Source: a virus. Taken from it: a stretch of 24,887 bases of DNA. The position numbers and the translations under genes were made by a program. The notes beneath the pieces are model-generated. The model did no database searches and was not told where the DNA came from. It saw only the letters and a list, made by a program, of their open reading frames with translations. Positions 2,430-24,272 of this stretch are shown here, one piece after another. Where the stretch lies: positions 1 to 24,887 of IMG/VR virus record IMGVR_UViG_3300025151_000286, one strand, 5' to 3'. The first letter of the stretch is position 1; the number at the start of each line of letters is the position of its first letter.

Positions 2430-3914
2430 ATGGAAACCCTCCAAAGAACAGCTAATCGAGGAAGCGTGCCAACTGGGTATGAAATTGATAACTCTTTAAA
2501 GTTAGAGGCTGATAATAGTGAACGACTAAAATCAAACAGCTATCACGCTTCTTCAACACCAACAAGCTCTAAAATTGGTACATTTTCTTTTTGGGTAAAA
2601 AGAACTGAATTAGGTGCTAATTACATGGTTGTTTCAGGAAACTCTGCAAGATATTCTAGAATGTATTTTAATTCAGACGACAAAATACAATTATATTCAG
2701 GTGATAGTTCTTGGAATAGCGTACAACCAATAACAAGCACTGTTTATAGAGATACAGCCGCTTGGTACCACATTGTACTTAGGCTTGACTCTACTGATAG
2801 CACAGCATCTAATAGATTAAGATTATATGTAAACGGTGAAGAACAGGCTTGGGGAACTTCACCCAATATTACACAAGATGGTGTTTTCACATTATGTGAA
2901 TTTGGTGGCCCAACTTGGCACTCTTGGGGTTCAAACTTATCATATTTTACACCTTCAGCTTATTTTAGTGGTTATTTAGCAGAGGTTCATTATGTAGATG
3001 GTCAGGCTTTAGCACCAACAGAGTTTGGTGAAACTGATAGCGATTCAGGTATTTGGAAGCCCAAAGAATATGGTGGAACTTATGGTAACAGTGGTTACTA
3101 TATGGATTTTGAAGATGCTAGTAATTTGGGTGATGATGAATCAGGAAACGGATTTGACTTTGATGAAAACAACATTACATCTATAGACCAATCTGTAGAC
3201 ACACCTACTAACAATTTTGCAATACCAAATGTTTTATGGAACAACTATAACACTGCTACAAGAAGATATACTGCTGTTGAGGGTGGCACAAGATTAGCAG
3301 GAAATCAAAGCAATGTTCTTTGGCGAGGAATACCTGCAACAATACCTGTAAGTAGTGGCAAATGGTATGTTGAAGTAGAGCAAGACAGTACTAATAGTAC
3401 AAATTTTTTATTTGGCTATGGCTCTGCCGATGAACAAGCTTGGGATTGGAGAGAGTTAACAGCAATTCCTTCAGGTGCAAATAATGGTGGCGGAGCAAAA
3501 TGCTTATATTCATATAATCATGGAGTATACGGCTATGATTCTGCTGTTGATCCTTGGCAATATGGTGGCGGTAACTCAAGAACTCAGGGCGATGTCCTTT
3601 GTTTGGCACTAGATTTGGATAATGGCTATGGATATTGGAGAAAAGATGACGGAGCTTGGTTTCAAAGTGGTGACCCCTCAAGTGGCTCAAGTGGCACTGG
3701 TGGCATTACCGTTCCTTGGAACTCTACTCAAAGTACAGTTATTGTTCATCATACAGCTAGAGATAGCGGTGTTTTTAACACGAATTATGGCGGTTTTACA
3801 AAAATGACAATTTCTTCACCAAACACAGATGCAAATGGGTATGGTAGATTTAAATATGCAGTGCCTAGTGGCTACTATGCCTTATGCACTAAAAATGTAG
3901 CGGAGTACGGATAA
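2430..3914 (+). CDS. LamG/concanavalin-like adhesion protein of the tail fibre block
   Basis: This 494-residue protein looks like a two-domain receptor-binding protein. Residues of about 20-205 resemble a LamG/ConA-like jelly roll: a GTFSFWVKRT strand, AWYHIVLRLDST, RLRLYVNGEE, and a GYLAEVHYVDGQALAPTEFG strand followed by WKPKEYGGTYG. Residues of about 275-490 resemble a second beta-sandwich of SPRY type, with a GKWYVEVEQD strand, a GYGSADEQAWDW segment and DVLCLALDLDNGYGYWRKDD. Such domains bind carbohydrate or cell-surface ligands. Its TAA stop shares a base with the next ATG (TAATG), so the two are translationally coupled and probably assemble together. Domain assignment is by eye. Confidence 0.7.
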   Translation: METLQRTANRGSVPTGYEIDNSLKLEADNSERLKSNSYHASSTPTSSKIGTFSFWVKRTELGANYMVVSGNSARYSRMYFNSDDKIQLYSGDSSWNSVQPITSTVYRDTAAWYHIVLRLDSTDSTASNRLRLYVNGEEQAWGTSPNITQDGVFTLCEFGGPTWHSWGSNLSYFTPSAYFSGYLAEVHYVDGQALAPTEFGETDSDSGIWKPKEYGGTYGNSGYYMDFEDASNLGDDESGNGFDFDENNITSIDQSVDTPTNNFAIPNVLWNNYNTATRRYTAVEGGTRLAGNQSNVLWRGIPATIPVSSGKWYVEVEQDSTNSTNFLFGYGSADEQAWDWRELTAIPSGANNGGGAKCLYSYNHGVYGYDSAVDPWQYGGGNSRTQGDVLCLALDLDNGYGYWRKDDGAWFQSGDPSSGSSGTGGITVPWNSTQSTVIVHHTARDSGVFNTNYGGFTKMTISSPNTDANGYGRFKYAVPSGYYALCTKNVAEYG

Positions 3915-18294: not shown

Positions 18295-18753
18295 TTACTC
18301 CTTGCTCCATTTAAATTTCATTTGTCCAACTACAGGTTGCCACTCTCTGCCTGGCCTTGAAGTCCAACCCTTTCCTTCTTTCCAGCCACCCGTTTCTCCT
18401 ATTATTTTGTATCCAGCGGCTTTTAAACTAATTCCTGATTCTTCTTGTAATGTATATGTAATCATTCTCTTACCACCCATTTGTTGCCATATTCTCCATA
18501 TCCTTCCATACAAAAAAGAGTTTGTATTTTTAGGAGATTTTTCGTTTACACAGACTCTAACAGCTTCGGCTGTAAAACCGTCATCAAGTTTTCTAGCTAC
18601 AGGTCGCCCAACAATTGCAACGCCTACCAACCTATTCTCATATGAAGCTCCGATTGCAAACTTTGCTCCTCTAACAGGTTTATTATGTCTATGAAAGTTT
18701 TCAACAAATTGGTTTGCCTCTTTGATGCTTATAGGAATTGGTGTTAGTTTCAT
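18295..18753 (-). CDS. XF1762/Mom-like GNAT-fold protein, putative DNA-modification enzyme
   Basis: The 152-residue protein matches, from memory, the XF1762 family of phage and prophage proteins, which has an acetyltransferase-like (GNAT) fold related to Mu Mom. Conserved-looking positions are HRH at 21-23 with KPVRGAKF after it, VAIVGRPVARKLDDG at 45-59, E63/R66/C68, SFLYGRIW at 79-86, and RMITYTL at 96-102 followed by ESGISLKAAGY. Mom converts adenine in DNA to a carbamoylmethyl form that resists restriction. Whether this homologue modifies DNA is not known from the sequence. It overlaps the primase-helicase gene by 4 nt (ATGA), so it is expressed with replication genes. Confidence 0.75.
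   Translation of the reverse strand: MKLTPIPISIKEANQFVENFHRHNKPVRGAKFAIGASYENRLVGVAIVGRPVARKLDDGFTAEAVRVCVNEKSPKNTNSFLYGRIWRIWQQMGGKRMITYTLQEESGISLKAAGYKIIGETGGWKEGKGWTSRPGREWQPVVGQMKFKWSKE
18298..18303 (-). promoter_or_regulatory. Ribosome binding site deciding the nuclease start
   Basis: On the minus strand AAGGAG is followed by 5 nt and the ATG at 18292. It is embedded in the last codons of the Mom-like gene, so the two genes are closely linked in translation. Confidence 0.7.
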
Positions 18754-23234: not shown

Positions 23235-24272
23235 TTATAGTCCCTCCTCTTTTGCTATTGCTAATCCTATTTGATGTATAACTTGTGGCACTATTGCGTT
23301 TCCGAGTGCTTTAAGTCTGTCCACCCTATTGGGTACCCCATCAGCCACTCTACCCACGTTGGGTTCAGTTGCCCATTGACTCCCATCATTTTTAAACGGT
23401 TCGGTAATTGTCCTTGATGTCTCGGTTTCTCCAAGAGATGCTTCATGCTGTTCTGTCCCTTGTAGTCCCTTGTTGCTGGTGTCGGCCACATTCTGTTTGG
23501 TTTTTGGCTTTGACTGTCCGTTACTGCTGCGCTCAGACTCCATCCATGTGTTCCTTTCAACATGCTTGGACTTGGCTTTTCGTGATACGCCATTCTTGCT
23601 GTTGCTCTTGGAGTTGGCCATAGATTTGCTTCCCTCATGTCCTTGATCGGATATCCGTATTGAACTTGTTCCGCCAACGACCCTGGAGGTACTGTTTTCC
23701 TTCCCGATTCGTTCCTCATCTTTTCCCTCTTTTGTAAAGCTTCCTCCGATCTCGTCCCTATGTTTGTCGCATTCGGCGTCAGCCACATATCGTCCGATGA
23801 TCCAGACTCTATCTCTTCTATGGGGCGCTTCGATACCGCAAGCTGGAATAACAAACGATTGCGTGGCGTAGTTTTCACTTTCCAAGTCAATAGACACATC
23901 GTCGAGTGCCATGTTGACGAAGCCAGCAACGTTTTCGATAACGACCCAAGTGGGTTTTTTGTATTTAATAATTTCAAACACGTACGGCCAGAGGTGTCTA
24001 TCGTCCTCTTTTCCTTGGCGATTGCCCGCTTGACTGAAGGGCTGACAAGGGATGCCTCCGCAGAGGAGGTCGAAGTCTTGAATAATTCTTTTTGGGTCAT
24101 TTCCTAATTCCTTTAAATCGTTATAAATTGGTATTTGAGGCCAATGCTTGTTTAATATCTTACAGCAGAAGTCTTCTATCTCGCAGAAAGCTACGGTTTC
24201 AAATTTGCCTGTTGATTCTAATCCAAGTGAAAAGCCTCCAATACCCGAACAAGTATCGAATACTCTTATCAT
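23235..24272 (-). CDS. dcm: DNA (cytosine-5) methyltransferase
   Basis: This 345-residue enzyme transfers methyl from SAM to C5 of cytosine in DNA. Motif I is FDTCSGIGGFSLGLE (5-19), and motif IV GGIPCQPFSQAGN carries the catalytic C76. Motif VI is VVIENV with E113, and motif VIII is PHRRDRVWII (150-159). The closing motif is NRVDRLKALGNAIVPQV near 315-331. The region of about 163-299, where target recognition normally lies, is hydrophilic and low in complexity, with three (V/M)A(D/N) repeats (VADAECD, SMANSKSN, NVADTSN). It thus looks poorly folded for a target-recognition domain, and it coincides with a second reading frame. The start overlaps the DUF3310 stop (ATGA). Specificity is unknown. 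Likely protects phage DNA from restriction. Confidence 0.85.
   Translation of the reverse strand: MIRVFDTCSGIGGFSLGLESTGKFETVAFCEIEDFCCKILNKHWPQIPIYNDLKELGNDPKRIIQDFDLLCGGIPCQPFSQAGNRQGKEDDRHLWPYVFEIIKYKKPTWVVIENVAGFVNMALDDVSIDLESENYATQSFVIPACGIEAPHRRDRVWIIGRYVADAECDKHRDEIGGSFTKEGKDEERIGKENSTSRVVGGTSSIRISDQGHEGSKSMANSKSNSKNGVSRKAKSKHVERNTWMESERSSNGQSKPKTKQNVADTSNKGLQGTEQHEASLGETETSRTITEPFKNDGSQWATEPNVGRVADGVPNRVDRLKALGNAIVPQVIHQIGLAIAKEEGL
23291..24100 (-). CDS. Overlapping-frame protein inside dcm (W-P-T-P repeat protein)
   Basis: An open frame of 269 residues lies within dcm on the same strand in another frame. It is not random-looking. The segments WLTPNATN, WPTPRATA and WPTPATRD recur with spacing, and the C-terminus contains a GQLNPTWVEWLMGYPIGWTD segment. 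The middle reads LLASSTWHSTMCLLTWKVKT followed by RNRLLFQLAV. I recall annotated phage proteins with the same order of motifs, usually beside or inside dcm genes. The start ATG at 24100 has only weak AGGA-like sequence upstream, so translation is uncertain. It may be a real second protein or a frame kept open because homologues use either frame for the C-terminal domain. Function unknown. Confidence 0.45.
   Translation of the reverse strand: MTQKELFKTSTSSAEASLVSPSVKRAIAKEKRTIDTSGRTCLKLLNTKNPLGSLSKTLLASSTWHSTMCLLTWKVKTTPRNRLLFQLAVSKRPIEEIESGSSDDMWLTPNATNIGTRSEEALQKREKMRNESGRKTVPPGSLAEQVQYGYPIKDMREANLWPTPRATARMAYHEKPSPSMLKGTHGWSLSAAVTDSQSQKPNRMWPTPATRDYKGQNSMKHLLEKPRHQGQLPNRLKMMGVNGQLNPTWVEWLMGYPIGWTDLKHSETQ

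Follow-up and report, generated by a model that had tools for sequence, protein, structure and literature searches.

The window, by which we mean the whole 24,887-base stretch of DNA analysed here, is a complete IMG/VR virus record. On its minus strand it carries a C5-cytosine methyltransferase gene (dcm), and inside this gene lies a second long reading frame on the same strand (Table 1). As the original prediction had stated, the nested frame runs for 269 codons; it lies in the +1 frame of dcm and has its own Shine-Dalgarno sequence and ATG. The product of the dcm frame is called alpha below, and that of the nested frame beta. The motifs WLTPNA, WPTPRA and WPTPAT, whose first residues in beta are 106, 161 and 205, overlie VADA, MANS and VADT of dcm on the same DNA. 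Similarly, the end of the nested frame, NPTWVEWLMGYPIGWTD, overlies EPNVGRVADGVPNRVD in dcm. Both coincidences had been pointed out before and were found again on mapping. Upstream of dcm, on the same strand, are genes for a DUF3310 protein and an exonuclease-like protein. A second DNA-modification gene of the phage lies about 4.5 kb away, at 18298-18753 on the minus strand, and encodes a Mom-like DNA modification protein (phrog_1384, E 5e-36).

Table 1. Features of the dcm locus, with positions in the window
Feature	Position	Strand	Basis
Alpha, C5-cytosine methyltransferase catalytic chain (dcm frame), 345 aa	23235..24272	-	PF00145 E 2.7e-45; TIGR00675 E 4.8e-38; phrog_363 E 8.9e-73
Beta, nested +1-frame gene, 269 aa; chain with putative motif IX, presumed target-recognition chain	23291..24100	-	Open-frame test; codon-position test; phrog_1008 E 1.8e-28
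Beta start codon ATG	24098..24100	-	Position kept in most homologues
Beta Shine-Dalgarno sequence AAAGGA, 8 bases 5' of ATG	24109..24114	-	Sequence reading; fused to the TAA at 24113-24115 that opens the nested frame
Alpha catalytic large domain, motifs I-VIII	23778..24269	-	Profile alignment to M.HhaI residues 12-174, E 8e-37; AF2 core mostly pLDDT >85
Alpha residues 166-312, predicted unstructured linker over beta modules and most of motif IX	23337..23777	-	AF2 pLDDT <50 nearly throughout; substitutions track the beta frame
Alpha motif X (RLKALGNAIVPQ and C-terminal helix)	23238..23327	-	AF2 helices 316-324 and 327-343; weak alignment to M.HhaI GNSVV
Beta N-terminal part, over alpha motifs IV-VIII	23801..24100	-	Conserved profile altN; constraint in both frames
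Beta module 1 (WLTPNA...)	23621..23785	-	Shuffled-module cluster 1
Beta module 2 (WPTPRA...)	23489..23620	-	Shuffled-module cluster 0
Beta module 3 (WPTPAT...)	23369..23488	-	Shuffled-module cluster 0
Putative beta motif IX (LNPTWVEWLMGYPIGWTD)	23315..23368	-	L-N-P-x-W-V-E invariant over 64 rows; shares a frame with the motif X that follows in L182 and layout-2 relatives

Motifs of the two chains

Canonical C5 methyltransferases possess a small domain that contains motif IX. Alpha aligns to M.HhaI through motif VIII, its alignment in motif X is weak, and it matches solved methyltransferases across the large domain only. Also, a Foldseek search with the AF2 model of alpha matched the large domain of M.HhaI over about 165 columns. 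The model consists of a confident catalytic core and a C-terminal helix; between them, almost all of residues 166-312 have pLDDT values under 50 and secondary structure is nearly absent, and no folded small domain is present between motifs VIII and X. No motif IX was found in alpha with PF00145, in the M.HhaI alignment or in the AF2 model. On these grounds, a monomeric C5 methyltransferase of the PF00145 and TIGR00675 type, in which a single chain combines motifs I-X with a folded recognition domain, was rejected for alpha. Alpha appears instead to consist of motifs I-VIII and X, and in the model the region separating VIII from X resembles an open linker.

The C-terminal end of beta follows the pattern LNPxWVEWLMGYPxGWT. 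This end is identified as a probable motif IX (LNPTWVEWLMGYPIGWT) from its position and from relatives in which it stands in frame with the other motifs. In L182, the beta-type motif IX is read in the dcm frame directly before RLVALGNAVVPQ, which is the canonical IX-X order. PF00145 aligned to this stretch of L182 from profile position 277, with a fragment E value of 0.02 that is below the curated cut-off, within a whole-protein match of E 7e-52. When canonical motif IX was compared with the beta tail in hhalign, the right columns were placed together, but the match was not significant by itself. Two copies of motif IX occur in one nested frame of the Paenibacillus polymyxa plasmid pAP1 (L292, positions 3206-3274 and 3419-3484).

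Altogether 694 WxTP segments, with a median length of 41 aa, were found in 215 distinct beta proteins, which hold 0 to 8 each, and these segments formed 141 clusters. The common clusters have varied successors, cluster 0 being followed by 26 kinds and cluster 1 by 19 kinds. In L074, beta extends 466 bases beyond the end of alpha and carries further WxTP segments there. In C5 methyltransferases, the recognition domain typically sits between motifs VIII and IX and consists of segments that vary and are shuffled. Because the segments between VIII and IX are variable and shuffled here as well, we infer that specificity resides in beta, with the WxTP modules as the target-recognition part.

The position of motif X differs among relatives. 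Among 192 distinct catalytic domains, 158 are of layout 1, in which motif X is in the dcm frame as in the window, and 31 are of layout 2, in which it is in the nested frame; one is single-frame and two are irregular. In L023, L036, L089 and others, alpha ends after motif VIII, and beta contains the WxTP modules, IX and X in one frame. A FastTree phylogeny of the catalytic domain shows at least nine interchanges of layout on well-supported branches and 14 at minimum, counts that come from FastTree only and from a tree with several long branches. By this phylogeny, motif X has switched frame repeatedly among the relatives. The suggestion that a segment changes frame between relatives is thus borne out for motif X, and L182 adds a motif IX in the dcm frame. 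A shift of another kind is seen in L254 and L260, where motifs IX and X are jointly displaced by one frame relative to the N-terminal part of beta; these may be decayed copies, sequencing errors or a further layout.

Because either chain can carry motif X, its switching argues that alpha and beta belong to one enzyme. It is unlikely that the nested frame encodes a separate protein with another job, such as an anti-restriction protein or a regulator, which only shares the DNA of the methyltransferase. A separate protein would agree with the N-terminal part of beta having no assigned role and with beta having neither a fold nor a solved relative (the AF2 model of beta alone was poor, with pLDDT 48, and unfit for fold search; a PDB sequence search with the beta profile matched no solved structure, and one with a layout-2 beta gave chance matches only), but it accords badly with the absence of motif IX from alpha and its presence in beta, with the repeated movement of motif X between the two chains, and with the loci mapped by the beta profile, all of which carry a catalytic domain in the other frame, save for contig-end cuts or profile gaps. 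The original prediction had assigned no function to the nested frame; on this evidence, beta is very probably the partner chain that directs the methyltransferase to its DNA target.

Start signals and coding constraint of the nested frame

The nested ATG is preceded by TAAAGGA, in which a stop codon of the nested frame is fused to the Shine-Dalgarno sequence. AAGGA(G/A) and ATG occur at the same place in most homologues, and beta starts with ATG or GTG in 190 of 197 distinct loci. A Shine-Dalgarno match of at least five bases is found at 72% of 190 homologous starts, compared with 33% under synonymous resampling. Because the Shine-Dalgarno sequence and ATG are conserved, independent initiation of beta is favoured over frameshifting. 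A real nested frame could also be reached by +1 ribosomal frameshifting from alpha to give a fused alpha-beta protein, and for layout 2 such a shift, placed close to the end of alpha, would produce a single protein with motifs I-X in canonical order. This route is nevertheless improbable in view of the conserved start signals, of the nested-frame stop that lies shortly 5' of the beta start in most loci, and of the fact that in layout 1, the layout of the window, the fusion would be without motif X.

The openness of the frame was tested with 1000 synonymous-codon shuffles of dcm, which held both the protein and the codon usage constant. The longest +1 ORF in the window's dcm has 270 codons, compared with a mean of 85 and a maximum of 175 in the shuffles (p 0.001), and the same test detected no excess openness in the +2 frame (p 0.82). 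When 43 homologues were included, +1 openness had p values of 0.001-0.012 in 44 of 44 genes, with no signal in the +2 frame of nearly all of them. Alignment scores of other nested frames to that of the window were 4 to 21 standard deviations above synonymous shuffles. In homologues retrieved by the dcm protein only, nested-frame identity equalled or exceeded dcm identity in the best segments, for example 79% versus 53% in L085 and 77% versus 69% in L082. In addition, wherever loci retrieved by the dcm protein or by its catalytic half alone extend far enough, the nested motif is present in their +1 frame.

Substitutions are distributed differently in the single-coded and overlapping parts of dcm. 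In single-coded parts, codon position 3 takes 58-69% of the substitutions. In the overlap past motif VIII its share is only 13-25%, and 52-66% are found at dcm position 1, the wobble (third) position of nested codons. These counts come from three differently chosen sets (102 pairs, loci selected independently of the nested frame, and loci from bacteria), among which the pattern repeats, and they are descriptive, as pairs of related loci are not independent. The nested-only DNA of layout-2 relatives has proportions of.58/.25/.18 at the three positions, much like the overlap. Because substitutions peak at dcm position 1 and the nested-only DNA behaves alike, the nested frame is the constrained one between motifs VIII and X, and dcm is mostly just kept open there. 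Over motifs IV-VIII, the rate at dcm position 3 is halved, from.48 to.26 per site, and constraint acts on both frames.

The nested ORF is a real and presumably translated gene, and its dual coding is conserved. The original prediction of conserved dual coding, which was to be judged by homologues of the nested frame, by stop codons in the alternative frame of these homologues and by constraint at dcm synonymous sites, is supported by the shuffles, the conserved start signals and the codon-position test; homologues are frequent, alternative-frame stops in them are rare, and synonymous-site constraint is present. That the ORF is a mere by-product of dcm codon use and conserved dcm motifs is close to excluded by the shuffles and the substitution pattern, as dcm wobble is the slowest position in the overlap past motif VIII and the layout-2 nested frame continues alone beyond the alpha stop with its substitution pattern unchanged, although openness over motifs IV-VIII could partly have another cause, as a long +1 ORF is present there in some canonical enzymes too.

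Such ORFs were seen in canonical C5 methyltransferases of Streptococcus and Arthrobacter phages (L281, L282, L284, L285, L293 and L295), where they cover motifs IV-VIII with 142-171 codons (synonymous shuffles, p 0.002-0.024). Most of them terminate with a DILEENVDEKFFLS-like peptide that L283 and L286 encode in the main frame; enzymes of the L281 type have GHLRG...VFPLSG in the main frame at that place. The DILEENVDEKFFLS-like segment is perhaps a second frame-changing segment of the enzyme family.

A candidate heterodimeric methyltransferase and its known counterparts

The locus is likely to encode a phage heterodimeric C5-cytosine DNA methyltransferase, both chains of which are overprinted on the same DNA. 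Alpha would provide the catalytic large domain, with motifs I-VIII and X and an open, unstructured linker between VIII and X. Beta, translated in the +1 frame from its own Shine-Dalgarno sequence and ATG, would supply motif IX and the variable WxTP modules that read the DNA target. The two chains would then assemble into one enzyme, which may protect phage DNA against host restriction. Selection on two frames, the distribution of motifs, the start signals, the frame switching of motif X and the shuffling of modules support a heterodimer; the poor AF2 model of beta alone, the lack of a solved relative by sequence, a motif IX profile comparison that is not significant alone and the prediction of a recognition domain on alpha for M.EcoHK31I count against it. 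More tentatively, and as a possibility rather than a probability, the relatives may be members of an extensive and ancient overprinted gene family whose nested chain has taken over DNA recognition, with shuffling WxTP cassettes that give single- or multi-target specificity and a host frame that survives only as an open linker. If so, it would be a modular specificity-subunit system, similar in its working to the type I S subunit but overprinted on its own catalytic gene.

In the two-polypeptide enzyme M.EcoHK31I (target YGGCCR; chains alpha and beta), an alternative frame within the gene of the large chain codes for the small one, and the second chain of the window likewise lies in another frame inside the first. 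The larger chain of M.EcoHK31I comprises motifs I-VIII and X, motif IX stands alone on the second, smaller polypeptide, and the recognition domain was predicted by its authors to be on alpha (PMC3404938). The large chain of the window similarly has I-VIII and X without IX, and its second chain has the putative IX. Because the motif layout matches, the window can be filed with the M.EcoHK31I kind, a placement made by sequence layout. Unlike the predicted recognition domain of M.EcoHK31I, the variable, selected segment of the window is placed on beta by the evidence. The present genes also differ in being phage-borne, in their 0-8 shuffling WxTP segments and in a motif X that changes chain in relatives. 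The kind itself is known; the new elements are its size and spread, the modular shuffling, the frame-hopping of motif X and the evidence for recognition in the nested chain. Searches of E. coli and plasmid sequences found relatives, none of them identifiable as M.EcoHK31I. The E. coli copies inspected sit among phage genes, and no restriction enzyme adjoins any copy inspected.

M.AquI (CYCGRG) is also a two-chain enzyme, with motifs I-VIII on alpha and IX-X on one separate polypeptide, beta (PMC3404938). Its motif split is shared by the layout-2 relatives (L023, L036, L089, L106 and others). For the window, the M.AquI type of split was rejected, as motif X is on alpha; beta also overlaps alpha almost entirely, unlike in M.AquI.

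PHROG 1008, labelled 'DNA methyltransferase', already holds nested proteins, and beta matches it over its whole length (residues 6-264), but the label is silent on its members being the second frame of another methyltransferase gene. The Diva_50 'g49 internal gene' and similar pairs in Paenibacillus larvae phages have the nested +1 arrangement as two annotated coding sequences, but the annotation reads only 'hypothetical' or a second 'cytosine methyltransferase', with no motif assignment. In the 5093-group phages of S. thermophilus (Tn5252-like), overlapping C5 methyltransferase frames at one locus have been called striking (PMC5601072). These phages are alike in having two frames over one methyltransferase locus. 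The overlap of phage 5093 was rejected as the same system: its main frame contains a canonical motif IX, and none of the nested-family profiles matches it.

Distribution and annotation

Relatives of the nested protein are encoded in at least 596 viral-contig stretches and in 81 phage records. The latter are mostly P. larvae phages; other phage hosts are Lacticaseibacillus, Escherichia, Erwinia, Bacteroides, Acinetobacter and Synechococcus. Bacterial contigs gave 354 stretches, the best 80 of which span more than ten phyla, as labelled in the records. Of these best 80, 77 are of layout 1 (one without a detected N-terminal part of beta), one is of layout 2 and two are the shifted L254 and L260. 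Annotated phage records mostly list the dcm frame only. Those of P. larvae phages often list both frames, and their annotated copies of the nested protein match PHROG 1008.

Long same-strand overprinted genes are difficult to prove in double-stranded DNA phages. For the present case, support comes from the pattern of substitutions, from the start signals and from occurrence in more than ten bacterial phyla. The case suggests that the annotation of many phage 'dcm' genes shows a single chain where two are needed, the second being omitted by automatic procedures. Such one-chain annotation could make cloned phage methyltransferases seem inactive. The location of specificity in these enzymes, and the reason for a nested motif IX chain, become directly testable.

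Two further loci were noted during mapping. An E. coli prophage copy of the nested kind (L287, 2493-3662) is entered in RefSeq as two partial pseudogenes, though its dcm frame reads through without a stop. In OX638333.1, the chromosome of a Roseovarius MAG, five equal-scoring copies of one 8.7-kb stretch were found (L188-L192), some about 46-47 kb apart, which are either repeated prophages or an assembly effect.
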